From NCBI GenBank assembly GCA_007713455.1, contig VMRT01000014.1, forward strand, positions 1 to 64,000: a stretch of DNA of 64,000 bases, written 5' to 3'. Shown piece after piece: positions 1-41,191 of this stretch. The translations under genes and the position numbers were made by a program. Source of the DNA: Pseudomonas sp. (GTDB taxonomy: Bacteria > Pseudomonadota > Gammaproteobacteria > Pseudomonadales > Pseudomonadaceae). Within the stretch, counting starts at the first letter, position 1, and every line of letters begins with the position of its first letter. The notes beneath the pieces were generated by a model. It saw only the letters and a program-made list of their open reading frames with translations, ran no database searches and was not told the origin of the DNA.

Positions 1-327
1 GGCGTGTGGGGTTCTTGCTGGAATTAGCGAAGGAAACATGCACCAGCAGTAGGTGAAGCATCAACCAGATAATCCGATGAGATGCCGGTCTGTCTCACTC
101 TCATGCAAAGGTAAGATCAACCATTTAATCCGCTTACCCTGTTTTTCTTGTTTCGGCTGCGGACAGGCCGCACGGTGATTTAGCGAGTTCCGTGCCAGAT
201 ACTCAACTCGCTGATTTGCATGGTTTTTATCTTGAGTGTCCAGATAGTTGGATAGCGCTTGTGTCTTGCATCCTGGACAGTGCGGTCCAGCATTCCGGAC
301 AACGTCGCCGTCCGGAACGCTCCGGCC
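1..327. other. Left-edge non-coding stretch
   Basis: No convincing gene is visible. The first 250 bases are noticeably richer in A+T than the rest of the window. An 8-bp perfect inverted repeat (AGCGAGTT at 182-189, AACTCGCT at 205-212, 15-base spacer) is present and could be an operator or a weak hairpin. Two closer hairpins at 273-317 are listed separately. The stretch may be the intergenic tail of a gene lying outside the window. Confidence 0.5.
273..317 (-). terminator. Tandem hairpins after the fatty acid transporter gene
   Basis: Two adjacent perfect hairpins lie just past the stop codon of the minus-strand transporter gene: CTGGAC/GTCCAG (273-278 with 285-290, 6-base loop) and TTCCGGAC/GTCCGGAA (293-300 with 310-317, 9-base loop). 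No clear T-tract follows, so factor-independent termination is only a possibility; they may instead protect the 3' end of the transcript. Confidence 0.35.
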
Positions 328-32834: not shown

Positions 32835-33620
32835 TCAGCGGGTGCTGCCGGCCAGTCGCTCGTAGTCCAGCGTCAGTTGTTCGATCTTGCGCAGCAGCGA
32901 ATCGCTGGTGGTGACGATTACCGTCGGGACGAAACGGGCGTCGTCGGCGAGGCTGAAACCGGCCCGGGCGAAGCGCCATTGCGCGCCGATCTGATCGAGC
33001 TGGCGGTTGATCTGCTCGGTGTTCTGCGGCGCCTTGTTCAGCTCGTCCAGGCCGCGCTCGAACTCCGCGACTGCCGCATCGAAATCGCCGCGCAGGCGCT
33101 GTTCCGGCAGCTTCCAGGTCATCGCCAGATAGAGCATGGCGATGCGCTGGCTGAGCATGCGCTGGCGCCCGCTGCGGTTGACCAGGCGAGCCGCCTGACT
33201 GCCGCTGTGGCGCTCGATCTCCTGCACCAGCGCTTCGCTCTGGCCGAGGAAGCGCTCGGCCAGGCGCAGCAGCTCGGCAGACTGTTCGCGATCCGGTTGG
33301 GTCAGGGCCAGCTGGCGATACTGATGCCAAGTCTGCGTGGCGTCTTCCAGCGCCTTGCGGATGGCATCGTTGGCGGCATATTCGTCGAGCAGCTGGGCAT
33401 TCTCCTCGACGCTGGCGATGCTGCTGTCGAGCTGGCTGGCGGCAAGATCGACGCGGGTATCGGTGCCGATCATCAGGTAACTCTTGGCGATGCGCTGGCC
33501 GAGCATGCGCTGCATGCCGGCGCGGTTGACCGCTTCGGCGTCGCTGATGGCGGCCTGGCAGGGCAGGCTGGCGGCCAGCAGGCCGAGCAGCAGGGAAGTG
33601 GGCAGCAGAATCTTGAACAT
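32835..33620 (-). CDS. Secreted protein with two PilJ/NarX-type sensor repeats
   Basis: 261 residues from the ATG at 33620 (AAGGAG upstream). A signal peptide (residues 1-23, ending CQA) precedes two copies of the type IV pili methyl-accepting N-terminal domain: NRAGMQRMLGQRIAKSY at residues 32-48 and NRSGRQRMLSQRIAMLY at 148-164. This element resembles the nitrate-binding P-box of NarX/NarQ and the N-terminus of PilJ. There is no membrane anchor beyond the signal and no output domain, so it is probably a soluble periplasmic binding protein. It lies between dnr and narL, suggesting a role in nitrate or nitrite perception. Confidence 0.75.
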   Translation of the reverse strand: MFKILLPTSLLLGLLAASLPCQAAISDAEAVNRAGMQRMLGQRIAKSYLMIGTDTRVDLAASQLDSSIASVEENAQLLDEYAANDAIRKALEDATQTWHQYRQLALTQPDREQSAELLRLAERFLGQSEALVQEIERHSGSQAARLVNRSGRQRMLSQRIAMLYLAMTWKLPEQRLRGDFDAAVAEFERGLDELNKAPQNTEQINRQLDQIGAQWRFARAGFSLADDARFVPTVIVTTSDSLLRKIEQLTLDYERLAGSTR

Positions 33621-33791
33621 GGGGCGCTCCTTACGTCCGGATGGGCGCGATGCTGACCACGCGGTCAGGTCGGTTGGGGACGAGAAGATAGAGCGCTTCG
33701 CGGTGATGGCATTGATGATCGTCAAGGGGGCGGCAGCCGCTTCGCGAGTTGAGCGATCACGCACAAAACTGCTGCCGGGCGACGGTGCCGG

Positions 33792-34448
33792 TCAGCCCTT
33801 CGCTTCGTTTTCCAGCACCCAGACGGCCGCCTCGACACGGGAACGCAGGCCCAGCTTGTGTAGCAGGTTCTTCACGTGGACCTTCACGGTGCCTTCGGTG
33901 ATGCCGAGCTTGCGCGCGATCATCTTGTTGCTCTGGCCCTTGGCGATCAGCCGCAGGACTTCCTTCTCGCGCTTGGTCAGGCTGGAAAACTGCACCTGGC
34001 CGGTGGGCTTGGGACGCACCCGGATGGCCTCGGCGAGCACCTGGGTCAGCTCGGGGCTGAGGGCCATGCGGCCGGTGGCGGCGATGCGGATCTGCTCGAT
34101 CAGCTGTTCGGCGTCCATGTCCTTGAGCAGGTAGCCATCGGCGCCGTTGCGCAGGGCTTCGAGGACATGACTCTGCTCGTCGGAGACGGTGAACATGATG
34201 ATCCGCGCATCGATGTCCGCGTCGCGCATGCGCCGGGTGGTCTCCAGGCCGTCAATGCCCGGCATGTTCAGGTCCATCAGGATCAGATCGGGCTCGATCT
34301 GTTGCGCGAGCTTGATGGCGTCCTCGCCGTTGCCCGCCTCAGCGACCACCTCAAGGTCATCTTCCAGTTCCAGCAGGTCACGCACGCCCCGGCGCATCAT
34401 GGGGTGGTCGTCGACCAGCAGGATTCGTGCAGTAGTCCATTCGTTCAT
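33792..34448 (-). CDS. narL: Nitrate response regulator NarL
   Basis: 218 residues from the ATG at 34448, which overlaps the narX remnant stop (ATGA). The receiver domain has the phospho-acceptor in ILMDLNMPGIDGLE (about residue 57), and the LuxR-type helix-turn-helix is LTKREKEVLRLIAKGQSNKMIARKLGITEGTVKVHVKN near the C-terminus. It should be phosphorylated by NarX in nitrate and control nar and dnr promoters. In this strain its kinase gene is truncated, so it may be orphaned. Confidence 0.92.
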   Translation of the reverse strand: MNEWTTARILLVDDHPMMRRGVRDLLELEDDLEVVAEAGNGEDAIKLAQQIEPDLILMDLNMPGIDGLETTRRMRDADIDARIIMFTVSDEQSHVLEALRNGADGYLLKDMDAEQLIEQIRIAATGRMALSPELTQVLAEAIRVRPKPTGQVQFSSLTKREKEVLRLIAKGQSNKMIARKLGITEGTVKVHVKNLLHKLGLRSRVEAAVWVLENEAKG

Positions 34449-35008
34449 GCGTGACACGTTCCTGTTTCGGGGGAAAGGCGGCGGTAGGCGGGCGGAAAGC
34501 TCAGATACACCAGCGTGCCTCCAGCAGGGCGCAGACCGATGTTGATGGTGCCATTCAGGCTATTGGCGCGCTCGAGCAGGATGATCAGGCCGTAGTGGCC
34601 GGCACGCTGCTCCTCGGGGCGGATGCCGATGCCATCGTCCTCGATCTTGATATGGATGGTGCCGTTGTTGTCCTGCATCAGGCTCAGCCAGCAGTGCTCG
34701 GCCTCGGCATGCTTGACCACGTTGCTAAGCGCCTCGCGGACGATCTGCAGGCAGTGCACCTCTTCGTTGGGCGTGAGCGGGCAGTGATCGAGGTGGTAGT
34801 CGCTCAGAATCTGCAGGCCGGAGTTGGCACCGAATTCCTCGATGGTCGCCTGCACCGCCGGTCGCAGCCCGGGTTCGTTGACCTTGATGCGGAAGGTCGT
34901 CAGCAGCTCGCGCAACTGGCGGTAGGCCGCGTTCAAGCCCTGGTCGATCTGCTGCACGCTGTCGTCAAGTTGTGCCTGGCTGCTTTCCTTCTGCATCAGG
35001 CGCTTGAG
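34445..35008 (-). pseudogene. narX: narX remnant (3' end only)
   Basis: Only the last 180-odd residues of the nitrate sensor kinase remain. Homology runs from about LKRLMQKE to the stop: the tail of the dimerisation region (LRELLTTFRIKVNEPGLRPA), the N box (REALSNVVKHA) and the ATP-binding G boxes (DDGIGI; GHYGLIILLERA). The periplasmic sensor, membrane helices, HAMP and the phosphorylated histidine are missing. Reading upstream, a stop appears one codon beyond LKRL, at about 35009-35011, where the sequence changes to narH. It cannot sense nitrate or autophosphorylate. Confidence 0.88.
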
Positions 35009-35439
35009 TCAGCATGGACGGCGTACTGCCGGACGTCGACAGCCTGCGCATTCCGCTGCGTTACCTGGCCAACCTGCTTACCGCAGGTGACGAGGAGCCG
35101 GTCAAGCTGGCGCTCAAGCGCATGCTCGCCATGCGTGCCTACAAGCGCGCCGAGCAGGTCGATGGCGTGCAGGACCTCAAGGTGCTGGAGAGCGTCGGTC
35201 TGTCGGTGGCCCAGGTGGAGGACATGTACCGCTACCTGGCCATCGCCAACTACGAAGACCGCTACGTGATCCCGACCGCGCACCGCGAAGAGGCCATGAG
35301 CGACGCCTTCGCCGAGCGTTCCGGTTGCGGCTTCAGCTTCGGCAGTGGCTGCTCGGGCGCCTCGGACACCAACATGTTTGGCGCGAAGAAGGCCAACCGC
35401 CGCGACATCATCAAGACCGTCCAGCTGTGGGAGGACTGA
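35009..35439 (+). pseudogene. narH: narH remnant (3' end only)
   Basis: The open frame from 35014 (MDGVLPDVDSLRIPLRYLAN) encodes 141 residues that align with the C-terminal quarter of the respiratory nitrate reductase beta subunit: AGDEEPVKLALKRMLAMRAYKRAE, MYRYLAIANYEDRYVIP and CGFSFGSGCSG are hallmark stretches. All iron-sulfur cysteine clusters of NarH lie upstream in the family and are absent. Immediately 5' is antisense narX sequence, so promoter, narG and the narH start are gone. narJ follows after three bases in the normal operon spacing. Confidence 0.9.
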
Positions 35440-35442
35440 GCC

Positions 35443-36198
35443 ATGCGCATCCTTAAAGTGATATCCCTGCTGCTGGACTACCCCGACCAGCACCTGCGCG
35501 ACGGCCATGCCGAACTGGCCCAGGCCATCGGCGCGGCCCGCGAGATCAGCCCGGAGCAGCGCATCGCGCTGCGCCGCCTGCTCGACGAGCTGACCGAAGA
35601 CGACCTGATGGACGTGCAGGAGCGTTACACCGACCTGTTCGACCGCGGCCGTTCACTGTCGCTGCTGTTGTTCGAACATGTGCATGGCGAATCTCGCGAC
35701 CGCGGCCAGGCCATGGTCAACCTGATGGCGCAGTACACCGAGGCTGGCTTCGACATCGGTGTACGCGAGCTGCCGGACTACATCCCGCTGTACCTCGAGT
35801 ACCTCGCCACCCGCGATGGCCTCGAGGCCCGCGAGGGGCTGGCCGATGTGTCGCATCTGCTGGCTCTGCTGGCGGCGCGTCTGCAGGAACGCGAAAGCCC
35901 GCATGCGGCGTGCTTCCGTGCGCTGCTGCAGATCGCCGGCGAGCCGGTGCAGGAAACCCTCGCCGGCCTGCAGGAGCAGGTCGCCGCCGAGGAACGCGAC
36001 GACTCGCTGGAAGCGCTGGACAAGATCTGGGAGGAGGAACAAGTCAATTTCCTCCAGGCCGAGCAGCAGGATCGCTGCCCATCCATGCCCAGCGGGCCGG
36101 GCAAGGCTCGCGAGGAAAGCCCGGTACCGCTGCACTGGACCGATTTCAAGCATGACGGGCTGGCTGCCGCGCTCGCCCAGGAGGTGCGCAATGTCTAA
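35443..36198 (+). CDS. narJ: Nitrate reductase assembly chaperone NarJ
   Basis: 251 residues, intact. NarJ binds the NarG precursor for molybdenum cofactor insertion. The N-terminal MRILKVISLLLDYPDQHLRDG and the middle LLLFEHVHGESRDRGQAMV (about residues 69-87) are diagnostic. It overlaps narI by eight bases. With narG deleted it has no known client here, and its original promoter is missing. Confidence 0.92.
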   Translation: MRILKVISLLLDYPDQHLRDGHAELAQAIGAAREISPEQRIALRRLLDELTEDDLMDVQERYTDLFDRGRSLSLLLFEHVHGESRDRGQAMVNLMAQYTEAGFDIGVRELPDYIPLYLEYLATRDGLEAREGLADVSHLLALLAARLQERESPHAACFRALLQIAGEPVQETLAGLQEQVAAEERDDSLEALDKIWEEEQVNFLQAEQQDRCPSMPSGPGKAREESPVPLHWTDFKHDGLAAALAQEVRNV

Positions 36199-36982
36199 CT
36201 TCAATTTCCTGCTGTTCGGGGTCTACCCCTACATCGCCCTGGCCATCTGCCTGATCGGCAGCTGGGCGCGCTTCGACCTGTCGCAGTACAGCTGGAAGGC
36301 CGGCTCGAGCCAGATGCTGTCGAACAACCGCATGCGCCTGGCGAGCAACCTGTTCCACGTCGGCATCATCTTCATCCTGGCCGGTCACTTCGTCGGTCTG
36401 CTGATGCCCGAGGCGCTGTACCACTCGTTCATCACCAGCGGCCAGAAGCAGATCGTGGCGATGGTGTCCGGCGGCTTCTTCGGCATCCTCTGCCTGATCG
36501 GCCTGGTGATGCTGATCCATCGTCGTCTGACCGATGCTCGTGTGCGTGCCACCTCCAACACCAGCGACATCATGATCCTCTTCGTGCTGCTGGCGCAGCT
36601 GGTGCTGGGTCTGCTGACCATCGTCGCCTCTACCGGCCATCTGGACGGTTCGGTTATGGTCCTGCTGGGCACCTGGGCGCAGAGCCTGGTCACCCTGCAG
36701 CCGGTCAAGGCCGCAGGCGCCATCGAGTCGGTCAGCGTGATCTACAAGCTGCACGTGTTCCTCGGTATGACCCTGTTCGTGCTGTTCCCCTTCACCCGCC
36801 TGGTGCACCTCGTCAGTGCGCCGGTGTGGTACCTGGGCCGGCGCTACCAGATCGTCCGCCAGAAGGGCGTCAAGCCAAGCGTGCCGCGCCCGCAGCGTCC
36901 ACGCACCTACGAAGCCCCGGCACGCGAAACCGCCGTGCCGACCGCTGTGCCTGCCACGGCAAAGAGCAAGACCCCGGTATGA
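36191..36982 (+). CDS. narI: Respiratory nitrate reductase gamma subunit NarI
   Basis: 263 residues, intact, with five membrane helices and the heme-b histidines in NLFHVGIIFILAGHFVGL (about residues 53-70) and KLHVFLGMTLFVLFPFTRLVH (about 184-204). It would transfer quinol electrons to NarH. It is longer than E. coli NarI because of a proline/alanine-rich C-terminal tail of about 40 residues. The ATG lies inside the end of narJ. Confidence 0.92.
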   Translation: MSNFNFLLFGVYPYIALAICLIGSWARFDLSQYSWKAGSSQMLSNNRMRLASNLFHVGIIFILAGHFVGLLMPEALYHSFITSGQKQIVAMVSGGFFGILCLIGLVMLIHRRLTDARVRATSNTSDIMILFVLLAQLVLGLLTIVASTGHLDGSVMVLLGTWAQSLVTLQPVKAAGAIESVSVIYKLHVFLGMTLFVLFPFTRLVHLVSAPVWYLGRRYQIVRQKGVKPSVPRPQRPRTYEAPARETAVPTAVPATAKSKTPV

Positions 36983-36990
36983 CCCTCGCC

Positions 36991-37013
36991 GGCTGACGCC
37001 CCGTGCGTCAGCC
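36991..37013 (+). other. Stem-loop between narI and the parvulin gene
   Basis: GGCTGACGC-CCCGT-GCGTCAGCC is a perfect 9-bp hairpin with a 5-base loop, nine bases after the narI stop. No T-run follows, so it is more likely an RNA-processing or partial-attenuation element than a terminator. Confidence 0.55.
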
Positions 37014-37063
37014 GTCCTGGCCGATCGGATCGAAGGTTCAAGCGTCTTATCGAGGTAATCATC

Positions 37064-38023
37064 ATGGGTTGTGGATGCGGTGGTAGCACAGGTGGAAGCG
37101 GCGGCTGCGGTGGCGGCGCGCGTCCGGAAATCGAAGTGCCGGTAGATGCCCCTCTGTTCGAGGAGCTGCCGCACGAGGAAGACAGCGAGCCGGCTGCCGA
37201 GCAGGCGTCCGGTGAACCGCTGCTGATTGCCAGCAGCGAACAGGAATGGCCGCGGGTGCGGGTCAATGGGGTGGCGATTGCCTCCCAGGCCATCGCTCAG
37301 GAATTGCAGTACCACCCGGCGGAAAACCGCGAAGAGGCCGTCTACCTGGCGACCCAGGCGCTGGTGTTGCGCGAGCTGCTGCAGCAGCGCATCGGTGAAC
37401 TGGGGCTGGTGGTGCGTGCCGAGGCTGGCGAAAGCGAGGAAGAGGCGGCCACCCGCACGCTGATCGAGCAGGAAGTGCCGCTACCGCTGGCCGACGAGGC
37501 TGCCTGCCAGCAGTACTACAGCGGCAATCAGCAGCGCTTCTTCAGCGCGCCGTTGCTGGCCGCGCGGCACATTCTGCTGGCCTGCCCGGCGGATGATGCC
37601 GAGGCGCGCAGCCTGGCTCGCGAACAGGCGCTGCAGTTGATCGGCCAACTGCAGGCCGCCCCGCAACGCTTCGCCGAGCTGGCGCTGCAGCATTCGGCCT
37701 GCCCGTCGAAAGCACAGGGCGGTGCGCTGGGCCAGATCAGCAAGGGCCAGACGGTGCCGGAGTTCGAGCGCCAGCTGTTCCGTCTGCCGGTAGGCCTGTG
37801 CCAGCAACCGCTGGAGAGCCGCTACGGCTACCACCTGGTGGTCGTCGACCAGCGCATCGAAGGCGAGCAGCTGCCCTACGAGGTGGTCGCCGGTTCGATT
37901 CGTGCCGAGCTCAACCAGCGTGTCTGGCAGATTGGCGTCAGCCAGTACTTGCAGAACCTGGTGGGTGCTGCGAACATCGAAGGCATCCTCATGCAGGGCG
38001 CCGAAACGCCACTGATGCAATAG
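37064..38023 (+). CDS. Peptidyl-prolyl isomerase (PpiC/NifM-like) of the nar operon
   Basis: 319 residues. A parvulin domain occupies about residues 160-260 (ARHILLACPADD; FAELALQHSACPSKAQGGALGQI; PVGLCQQPLESRYGYHLVVVD). The N-terminus is remarkable: the first 22 residues are glycine and cysteine rich (MGCGCGGSTGGSGGCGGG), with five cysteines... four of them in CGC and GGC contexts, and no signal peptide. The middle is acidic. Homologues follow narI in Pseudomonas denitrifiers and are thought to assist enzyme maturation; the role is not established. Confidence 0.8.
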   Translation: MGCGCGGSTGGSGGCGGGARPEIEVPVDAPLFEELPHEEDSEPAAEQASGEPLLIASSEQEWPRVRVNGVAIASQAIAQELQYHPAENREEAVYLATQALVLRELLQQRIGELGLVVRAEAGESEEEAATRTLIEQEVPLPLADEAACQQYYSGNQQRFFSAPLLAARHILLACPADDAEARSLAREQALQLIGQLQAAPQRFAELALQHSACPSKAQGGALGQISKGQTVPEFERQLFRLPVGLCQQPLESRYGYHLVVVDQRIEGEQLPYEVVAGSIRAELNQRVWQIGVSQYLQNLVGAANIEGILMQGAETPLMQ

Positions 38024-38039
38024 AGGCGGCTTGGCCCAA

Positions 38040-38162
38040 CGTAAGGTGGATGACGCTTCACCCATTCACCTTTGCGGGCTGGAGGTGGATGGAAGCGGCG
38101 GCGCTCGCACTACCCCACCGGGCGGGGCCATGGTGGATGAGAAAAGCGTCATCCACCCTACG
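38040..38162. repeat. GTAGGGTGGAT-family inverted repeats upstream of moaA
   Basis: CGTAAGGTGGATGACGCTT with CCATTCACC (38040-38070) and GGTGGATGAGAAAAGCGTC with ATCCACCCTACG (38132-38162) fill the gap between the parvulin gene and moaA. The second unit is almost identical to one at 60583-60616. Confidence 0.75.
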
Positions 38163-38182
38163 AAGTTTCAGAGGTGTTATCG

Positions 38183-39172
38183 ATGACTCAATTACGCGAT
38201 GCCCACAACCGCCAGATCGACTACCTGCGCATGTCGGTGACCGACCGTTGCGACTTCCGCTGCGTCTACTGCATGGCCGAGGACATGACCTTCCTGCCGC
38301 GCCAGCAGGTGCTCGGTCTGGAGGAGTTGGAGCGTATCGCGCGCATCTTCGTCGGCCTGGGGGTGAAGAAGATTCGCCTCACCGGCGGCGAGCCGCTGGT
38401 ACGCCAGGGCATCGTCGGTCTCTGCGAGCGCATCGCGGCCTTGCCCGGCCTGCGCGAACTGGTGATGACCACCAATGGCTCGCAGCTGGTCAAGCTTGCA
38501 GCACCGCTGGCGCGCGCCGGGGTCAAGCGGCTGAACATCAGCCTGGATAGCCTGGATGCCGCCAAATTCCACGCCATCACCCGCACCGGTCAGCTGCAGC
38601 AGGTGCTCGACGGGATCGACGCGGCGCGCGATGCCGGCTTCGAGCGGATCAAGCTCAATGCCGTGGTAATGAAGGGCCGCAACGCCGAGGAAGTCGCCGA
38701 CCTGGTGGACTTCGCCATCGCCGGTGGGCTGGACCTGAGCTTCATCGAGGAAATGCCGCTGGGCGACGTCGGTCGTTCGCGCGGCGAGAGTTTCTGCTCC
38801 AGTGACGAGGTCAAGGCGCTGATCGCTGAGCGCCATGCGCTGATCGATTCGGCCGAGCAGAGTGGCGGCCCGGCGCGTTACGTGCGCCTGCCTGAGCATC
38901 CGCAGACGCGCATTGGCTTCATCTCACCGCATTCCCACAACTTTTGCGCCACCTGCAACCGCGTGCGGCTGACGGTGGAAGGGCGCCTGCTGCTGTGCCT
39001 CGGCCACGAGAACTCCATCGACCTGCGTGCGCTGCTGCGCCGCCATCCGACCAGCGACCAGCCGGTGATCGACGCCATCCACGCTGCGCTGCAGCGCAAA
39101 CCGCTGCGCCATGAATTCTCCAGCAGCGGCGAGGTCCAGGTGTTGCGCTTCATGAATGCCAGTGGCGGTTGA
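38183..39172 (+). CDS. moaA: GTP 3',8-cyclase MoaA
   Basis: 329 residues. First step of molybdenum cofactor synthesis: radical-SAM rearrangement of GTP. The N-terminal 4Fe4S motif is CDFRCVYC (C-x3-C-x2-C, about residues 21-28), the C-terminal cluster is [18 protein letters not shown] (about 255-272), and the chain ends with the conserved Gly-Gly tail. The ATG at 38183 follows AGAGGTG. Its place after nar genes fits cofactor supply to nitrate reductase. Confidence 0.95.
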
Positions 39173-39416
39173 GGCGGGTGCCGACATGGGCTACGAGTCG
39201 ACCGTCTAATTCGCTACCATCGACCGGCATCGCCGGTTTGACCCACATGCCCAGCTGCCGCAGCCGGGCCTTGTCGCAGAGCCAGGTCGCGCAATTGCCT
39301 GCAGCGTTGTCAGAACTCATGGCACCCACGCCGCGCGGACATACCTCCAATGGGGAATGGGTTCGCGCACGGCACGGGTGCAGCCTGCGCACACATCTTC
39401 AAGGGAGTTTCGAGCC

Positions 39417-39962
39417 ATGGCTCACCTGTCCAACAGCGAATTCCAGCCCCTGAGCATTGCGGTGCTCACGGTGAGCGATACCCGCAACATCGATTCCGAT
39501 ACCTCCGGCCAGGCGCTGATCGACGGCCTGCAGAGCGCCGGCCACACCCTGGCAGAGCGGGCCATCGTCAAAGACGACGTCTGGCAGATCCGCGCCCGCG
39601 TCTGCAGCTGGATCGCCAGCGAAAACGTGCAGGTGGTGCTGATCACCGGGGGTACCGGTTTCACCGCCCGCGACAACACTCCACAGGCGGTACAGCCGCT
39701 GCTGGACAAAGATGTCGACGGCTTCGGTGAGCTGTTCCGCTACGTTTCGCTGGGCGAGATCGGCACCTCCACCGTGCAGTCCCGCGCGCTGGCCGGCATG
39801 AGCAACGGCACCCTGGTCTGCTGCCTGCCCGGCTCGACCAATGCCTGCCGCACCGCCTGGAACAAGATCCTCGTCGAGCAGCTGGACAGCCGCACCAAGC
39901 CCTGCAACTTCGTGCCACACCTCAAGGCTTCCGCCGTCGAATACTGCGGGCCCCGCTCATGA
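39417..39962 (+). CDS. moaB: Molybdenum cofactor biosynthesis protein B
   Basis: 181 residues from the ATG at 39417 (AAGGGA upstream; the in-frame 39357 start adds an unconserved leader). MoaB/Mog fold: IAVLTVSDTRN (residues 14-24), VLITGGTGFTARD (about 72-84) and CLPGSTNACRTAW (about 138-150). It is the molybdopterin adenylyltransferase-type protein. It overlaps moeA by four bases. The 244 bases before it hold no clear gene. Confidence 0.94.
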   Translation: MAHLSNSEFQPLSIAVLTVSDTRNIDSDTSGQALIDGLQSAGHTLAERAIVKDDVWQIRARVCSWIASENVQVVLITGGTGFTARDNTPQAVQPLLDKDVDGFGELFRYVSLGEIGTSTVQSRALAGMSNGTLVCCLPGSTNACRTAWNKILVEQLDSRTKPCNFVPHLKASAVEYCGPRS

Positions 39963-41191
39963 GTGCCTGTGGCTGCGACACCAGTGGCCTGAAGCCGGTC
40001 GACGAGGCCATCGCCGAACTGCTGGCGCGCGTGCCGGCGCTGCCGCCGGTGGAACACGTCGCGCTGTCCGATGCCCTTGGCCGGGTGCTGGCGGAATCCC
40101 TCGACGCTCCTTTCCCGGTGCCGGCCTGGGACAACAGCGCAATGGACGGCTACGCCCTGCGCGCCGCCGACCTGCCGGCTGAAGGCGGCTGGCTGCCACT
40201 CGCCGGGCGCATCGCCGCCGGTGATGCCGCCGACCAGCAACTGCCTGCCGGCCACGCCGTGCGCATCTTCACCGGCGCGCCGCTGCCGCCGGGTGCCGAT
40301 ACCGTGGTGGCGCAGGAGGATTGCCAGATCGAGGCTGATCGCGTGCATTTCCCCGGCGTTACCCAGGGCGCCCATGTGCGTCGTCAGGGCGAGGAACTGC
40401 AGGCTGGCGCCCCCGTGCTGCAGGCGGGCAAGCGTCTGCGCCCGCAGGAGATCGGCCTGCTGGCGAGCTTCGGCGTTGCCCGCGTGGCGGTCTATCGGCG
40501 CCTGCGCATCGGTTTGCTCTCCAGTGGCAACGAACTGCGCGAGCCCGGCGAGTCGCTGGCGCCGGGGCAGATCTACAACTCCAACCGCTACTGCCTGCTC
40601 AGCGTGCTGCGCAGTCTCGGAATGGAGGTGCACGACTACGAGATCCTCGTCGACGAACTGGCCGCCAGCCGCGACGCCCTGGCGCTGGCTGCCTCCGAAT
40701 GGGACATGCTGATCACCTCCGGTGGCGTCTCGGTCGGCGAGGAGGATCACCTCAAGCAGGCCATTCGCGAGCTGGGCGAGCTGCACATGTGGCGTCTGGC
40801 GATCCAGCCCGGCAAGCCGCTGGCCTTCGGTGAGGTCAACGGCAAGCCGTGGATCGGCCTGCCGGGCAATCCGGCTGCGGCGCTGATCACCTCGCTGGTG
40901 GTGGCGCGGCCGTTCCTGCTCAGTGCCCAGGGTTGCACCGATGTGCTGCCCAAGCCGCTGCGCCTGACCGCCGGCTTCGCCTGGCGCAAGCCGAACAACC
41001 GCCGCCAGTACCTGCGCGCGCGGCTCGAGCAGGTCGACGGCGAGATGCGCGTGTGCCTGCACCCGCGTCAGGGCTCGGCGATGCTGACCTCGGCGAGCTG
41101 GGCCGAAGGGCTGGCTATCGTCGAGCGCAACCGCACGCTGGAAGAGGGTGAGACGGTGGAGTACCTGCCGTTCAGCGAACTGCTCGGCTGA
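39959..41191 (+). CDS. moeA: Molybdopterin molybdenumtransferase MoeA
   Basis: 410 residues. It inserts molybdate into adenylated molybdopterin. PAWDNSAMDGYALRA (about residues 56-70), RIFTGAPLPPGADTVV (about 101-116), SSGNELREPG (about 186) and LPGNPAAALI (about 300) are the family motifs. The start overlaps moaB (ATGA). A 12-bp hairpin follows the stop. Confidence 0.95.
   Translation: MSACGCDTSGLKPVDEAIAELLARVPALPPVEHVALSDALGRVLAESLDAPFPVPAWDNSAMDGYALRAADLPAEGGWLPLAGRIAAGDAADQQLPAGHAVRIFTGAPLPPGADTVVAQEDCQIEADRVHFPGVTQGAHVRRQGEELQAGAPVLQAGKRLRPQEIGLLASFGVARVAVYRRLRIGLLSSGNELREPGESLAPGQIYNSNRYCLLSVLRSLGMEVHDYEILVDELAASRDALALAASEWDMLITSGGVSVGEEDHLKQAIRELGELHMWRLAIQPGKPLAFGEVNGKPWIGLPGNPAAALITSLVVARPFLLSAQGCTDVLPKPLRLTAGFAWRKPNNRRQYLRARLEQVDGEMRVCLHPRQGSAMLTSASWAEGLAIVERNRTLEEGETVEYLPFSELLG

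Follow-up and report, generated by a model that had tools for sequence, protein, structure and literature searches.

A base-exact 10-kb deletion in the nar locus of a Pseudomonas isolate, shared with a second species and probably leaving a Nap-only denitrifier

The respiratory nitrate reductase locus of this Pseudomonas sp. isolate lacks 10,171 bp of its core, and the remains of narX and narH now stand head to head at a single junction. We put at roughly 85% the probability that this is a genuine deletion that left a Nap-only denitrifier and that the scar, which a second species also carries, has one origin. The window (the whole stretch of DNA that was analyzed, 64,000 nt; C37:1-64000) belongs to a 46-contig draft genome of 4.71 Mb, rated 100% complete (G000), and the existence of the junction in the isolate's genome rests on this assembly and on that of G017, a genome from a different species of the genus. 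The Nap-only state itself, with slow, low-nitrite denitrification, is already described for Stutzerimonas in the available text of PMC13086519; the unusual part is a scar common to two species on different flanks.

The junction and what it left behind

Alignment to G028, an intact reference that we take to be Stutzerimonas kunmingensis 7850S, placed the narX'/narH' junction at window positions 35008/35009, with one ambiguous base, a G. With both flanks aligned, 10,171 bp were missing relative to G028, and the missing interval was 10,273 bp, 10,262 bp, and 10,262 bp relative to three other intact relatives (G053, apparently S. xanthomarina DSM 18231; G047; and G022, respectively). A preliminary description of this DNA had proposed a head-to-head junction and, judging from gene lengths, a deletion of several kilobases; the alignment confirmed the former to the base and supplied a measured size for the latter. 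The ends of the deletion have just a single base of microhomology in common and contain no repeat. In intact narXL-narKGHJI loci (G028, G047, G053, G022, and G019, the last apparently S. stutzeri BAL361), the gene order and flanks are the same as in G000 and G017, with narL, a PilJ-like gene, and a Crp/Fnr regulator and with a PPIase gene and moaA-moaB-moeA; the difference is that 10.2 to 10.3 kb of the core is missing from G000 and G017. The best named matches of the narH' protein were records from Stutzerimonas and close Pseudomonas. No description of this junction was found in open PMC articles.

The preliminary description had also raised the possibility of an assembly collapse, in which the 10 kb would still be in the cell and its flanks would have been joined by the assembler. 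G000 is indeed a draft of 46 contigs, and the evidence comes from assembly rather than from reads. However, the junction in the separately assembled genome of G017 is identical to the base, ends with one base in common offer an assembler nothing to collapse, and the 100% completeness rating of G000 also speaks against a missing segment. Moreover, when G000, G004 (a second genome from the species of the window), and G017 were searched with 10.5 kb of G028, no further copy of the segment came up; only the flanks were recovered, in G000 and G017, and the other matches in the three genomes were paralogous (72 to 76% identity over 66 to 271 bases) or 32 to 40 bases long. The possibility that the missing genes might lie on another contig of G000 thus found no support, and we consider a collapse very improbable and a genuine deletion the far better reading.

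The content of the lost part was read from the intact locus of G028 (L112). It comprises 1335 nt (68%) of narX, including the predicted phospho-acceptor His; the region between the divergent narX and narK, which carries one FNR-like box; two genes of the NarK family (TIGR00886, 294 and 285 bits, both below the cut-off of 311.7); narG (1251 aa, 2475 bits); and 1107 of the 1539 nt of narH (72%). This agrees with the earlier expectation that the 5' part of narX, one or more narK genes, narG, and most of narH had gone.

What is left of narX on the minus strand is the 3' third (narX', 34445 to 35008; longest ATG open reading frame, 34445 to 34996, 183 aa). It retains HATPase_c but matches the NarQ/NarX profiles only from position 395/418 onward, and neither sensor nor H-box is left, the codon for the presumed phospho-acceptor His (L112:13968) being on the deleted side of the breakpoint (14019). 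The reading frame had been said to stop upstream of LKRL, and we read LKRLMQKESSQ with a stop codon immediately before that of the initial L. On the plus strand, narH' (35009 to 35439; ATG open reading frame, 35014 to 35439) consists of the C-terminal 141 codons of narH and covers only positions 372 to 492 of the 492 positions of TIGR01660, so that a full NarH is absent and the start within the last quarter of the protein, as previously noted, holds.

The neighboring genes are open. To the left is an intact narL (33792 to 34457, minus strand; NF007935, 310 bits; cut-off, 250), and to the right, all on the plus strand, are the intact orphans narJ (35443 to 36198; TIGR00684, 128.8 bits; cut-off, 59.35) and narI (36191 to 36982; TIGR00351, 265.2 bits; cut-off, 105.55), a PPIase-type gene (ppiC/nifM-like; 37064 to 38023), and moaA-moaB-moeA (38174 to 41191, with moaA at 38174 to 39172, moaB at about 39417 to 39962, and moeA at 39959 to 41191). 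The products of narL, narJ, narI, moaA, and moaB all score above the curated cut-offs of their families. The claim that narJ, narI, ppiC, and moaA-moaB-moeA are intact therefore stands, with the qualification that two of the genes match below the family cut-off (PPIase gene, best match NifM, 90 bits versus 168; moeA, 401 bits versus 440). Judging from the anatomy of the locus, narL and narH'JI have been deprived of their natural upstream regions, i.e., both promoters would have been lost. About 50 bp at window positions 38063 to 38113, within a REP-like repeat region before moaA, are absent from G017, G028, and G047.

Nitrate respiration that probably remains

Nar is a membrane-bound, azide-sensitive enzyme. 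Profile searches of the contigs found no NarG above the TIGR01580 cut-off in G000, G004, or G017, and with narH truncated as well, the proposed loss of NarGHI is upheld. A candidate for a second narG in G000 was rejected; this best match to the NarG profile belongs to a type II DMSO reductase operon, as its alpha subunit. The expectation that membrane-bound nitrate reduction would be missing had been qualified by the possible presence of Nap, and that qualification proved to matter: the genome search found an intact NapA (contig C14, 1560 bits). Contig C40 carries three NirS-type PF02239 matches (521, 513, and 492 bits), any of which could be NirS, and NosZ (1044 bits). G000 thus has the gene content of a Nap-only denitrifier, with NapA, one or more NirS-type genes, and NosZ present and NarG absent. 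Since NapA is intact, nitrate is probably still respired, only more slowly. Among the 56 genomes of the genus, NarG exceeded the cut-off in 27 and did not in 29, and NapA was present in 46.

The phenotype to be expected here follows from that reported for Nap-only strains. According to the portion of PMC13086519 available, two Nap-only Stutzerimonas strains, S. frequens DNSP21 and S. stutzeri 28a3, are complete denitrifiers that accumulate little nitrite, and a narG knock-out of S. decontaminans 19SMN4 still converts nitrate completely to N2, at <1.3 umol nitrite per vial, taking 78 h versus 28 h. Like G000, these strains lack NarG and keep NapA, NirS, and NosZ; the loss in G000 takes the form of a base-exact scar that left narL, narJ, and narI and is common to two species. 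The same text indicates that having NarG or Nap only strongly affects the nitrite that a denitrifier releases.

In the sequence of events that we propose, a single 10,171-bp chromosomal deletion, joined at one base of microhomology, would have removed the sensor part of narX, the intergenic region, the narK genes, narG, and most of narH; narL, narJ, and narI would have stayed behind as orphans in a cell without NarGHI. Nitrate would then be respired via periplasmic Nap, followed by NirS and NosZ, and the cell would be a Nap-only denitrifier, for which slow denitrification with little build-up of nitrite is predicted. The deletion would have arisen once and would be common to the second species, in which it would be young or would have been moved, or had its flanks rewritten, by homologous recombination.

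The other genome of the window's species, G004, appears to be a more broken denitrifier than G000; a NirS-type gene (G004:C54:149542-150738) contains an internal TAA, and NosZ does not exceed the cut-off.

One scar in two species

Comparison of the scar alleles of G000 and G017 over narH', narJ, and narI revealed 15.8 nonsynonymous and 75.2 synonymous changes (narH', 0/11; narJ, 5/35; narI, 10.8/29.2), similar to the 15.2 and 63.8 changes between the intact alleles of G028 and G019 (Fisher p 0.84). Neutral change in the flanking genes since the scar alleles split was rejected, as about 16 of 91 changes are nonsynonymous and the assumed neutral fraction is 0.74. Private changes (six synonymous and three nonsynonymous in G000; five and one in G017) were within the range of intact alleles. 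Because the changes have been filtered by selection, most of the flank differences arose when the genes were still functional; the undecayed flanks therefore mean that the scar is young in the two backgrounds, has moved between species, or has had its flanks rewritten by recombination. The earlier impression of a recent loss is accordingly supported in part: the flanking genes show no decay, but the scar is already in two species.

The same lack of decay in narH', narJ, and narI between the scar alleles could instead mean that the remnant still works, with narJ, narI, and even narH' under selection for another role. This seems to us highly unlikely. The truncated narH' is without its first 371 residues, to which most of the family profile corresponds, neither operon has its natural upstream region any longer, the whole interval has been lost from G009 and G054, and a scar that arrived recently accounts for the pattern with no new role.

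The two scar alleles are identical over 51 bp around the junction (34974 to 35024), and the flank haplotypes of G000 and G017 differ within 16 bp to the right and 35 bp to the left of the junction. At 76 of the 91 differences between the scar alleles, both states occur among intact alleles; this figure is no proof of recombination, as synonymous states recur across the genus. Three sites had seemed to be shared by the scar alleles alone when compared with five intact loci, but the two on the right side were lost against a larger allele set. Among the 28 alleles of that set, which include the two scar alleles and few of which cover the left side, no right-side substitution is limited to the scar alleles. 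The short identical run and the lack of scar-only right-side substitutions weaken the case for a single origin as read from these alignments.

Both observations would also fit two independent deletions at the same bases, as at a breakage hotspot. Given a single base of microhomology and ends free of repeats, however, the same two breakpoints would hardly be hit twice over 10 kb, and short-tract recombination, which is seen at this locus, explains the differing flanks. From about 34350 to 34800, in narL/narX', the window is 99.5 to 100% identical to G053, whereas identity around this tract is far lower (87.5% at 34000; 93.5% at 34200, straddling the edge; and 82% at 34800); short exchanges therefore occur here, and the tract is best read as a recombination import. 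We regard two separate deletions as improbable and a single origin as the better explanation.

A further reading, which we offer tentatively and hold to be possible but not probable, is that the scar behaves as a mobile loss allele, carried by short-tract recombination from one Stutzerimonas species to another, into backgrounds in which NarG is a liability and Nap is kept. Such backgrounds might be, for example, chlorate-exposed lineages bearing a chlorate reductase-like (Clr-like) operon, and the route might be, for example, natural transformation, of which P. stutzeri is capable. If this reading were true, gene loss would spread horizontally much as gene gain does. A scar on different flanks across species offers a well-defined setting in which to ask if recombination can spread deletions.

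Repeated loss at the locus and chlorate as a possible driver

In a tree of the rpoB region from 30 of the 56 genus genomes, nine close genomes formed one clade (support, 100/100). NarG is found in three of them (G018, G019, and G028; the G018 copy is cut by a contig end, and that genome is 73% complete), and the six without it (G000, G004, G009, G017, G020, and G054) have four different locus structures; NarG status on this tree requires at least four changes. G000 and G017 carry the 10-kb scar. In G009 and G054, the interval corresponding to window positions 33105 to 38115 is wholly absent and its flanks join directly, at a point that adjoins a REP-like repeat and cuts the PilJ-like gene. In G004, narX is cut at 34755, with an IS110-family transposase beside it. 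In G020 (L165:7372-12359, G020:C10), a tetrathionate reductase-like ttrBCA set is present in front of moaA instead of nar (TtrA, 1317 bits versus a cut-off of 1750; TtrB, 415.7 versus 416). Operons for molybdoenzymes may be exchanged at this place before moaA. The gap in G039 is similar in size to that in G020, with the same PilJ fragments. The contig end of G004 (L108:1-4741, G004:C18) consists of identical tandem 2074-bp units with moaA-moaB, two full copies and a part, about 90% identical to moaA-moaB in the window, reflecting amplification or an assembly effect.

Loss of Nar with Nap kept is mostly ordinary in a clade where loss recurs. No second case of a truncated narH was found among 80 named loci surveyed, 13 of which could not show one; full NarG and NarH were present in 66, and in 13 of the other 14, narG is cut off because the match falls within the first 4.4 kb of the stretch, whereas the last (L097) has a full NarG with NarH in two pieces. 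The locus thus offers a base-exact loss, and among close relatives it is also found intact, broken by an IS element, fully empty, or occupied by another molybdoenzyme; this range of states, together with the 10-kb scar, makes the causes of Nar loss, chlorate included, testable by strain comparison.

Chlorate reductase (Clr) and chlorite dismutase (Cld) are periplasmic, and the active site of NarG is cytoplasmic. Chlorate could have driven the loss if cytoplasmic NarG makes chlorite beyond the reach of a periplasmic chlorite dismutase, so that narG is selected away and periplasmic Nap is kept. On the small contig C8, G000 carries a type II DMSO reductase operon (L107:361-8775) in the order ABDC, followed by genes for a propeller-like protein and, before it, an ATPase of the Mrp type. 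The alpha subunit of the operon shares 45% identity with proteins annotated as ClrA in Ideonella and Alicycliphilus and is thus chlorate reductase-like by sequence. In G004 this operon is spread over two contigs and is accompanied by a 282-aa chlorite dismutase beyond a DDE transposase. Among the 56 genus genomes, the NarG-profile search picked out such an operon only in these two (match of about 1e-30; next best, 1.5e-9), and both are without NarG, with different locus structures. Furthermore, Nar-type enzymes reduce chlorate and Nap does not, according to the accessible part of PMC6299022.

Chlorate selection against Nar is therefore plausible, but we consider it unlikely to be the driver. 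As many as 29 of the 56 genomes are without NarG over the cut-off, including the operon-free G017, G009, G054, and G020, and two of two operon carriers lacking NarG has a chance of 0.26, so the association is not significant. The argument from compartments is inferential. No match to chlorite dismutase (PF06778) was found in the G000 assembly, in which C8 ends close to the operon and an assembly gap is possible. According to the excerpted text of PMC9320692, the chlorate-reducing S. chloritidismutans AW-1 could not grow with nitrate in its original description, and denitrifying variants with induced nitrate reductase activity came later. G000 and G004 resemble AW-1 in gene content: both have the Clr-like operon, G004 has the chlorite dismutase, and neither has NarG over the cut-off.

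The Clr-like operon may lie in a mobile element close to the left end of the window. Window positions 1 to 152 are repeated (98%) at the end of C8 (L107:8763-8914) and beside the Clr-like operon of G004 (G004:C18:85888-86039). Read by eye, this 152-base repeat is near a MerR-like gene and metal-transport genes.
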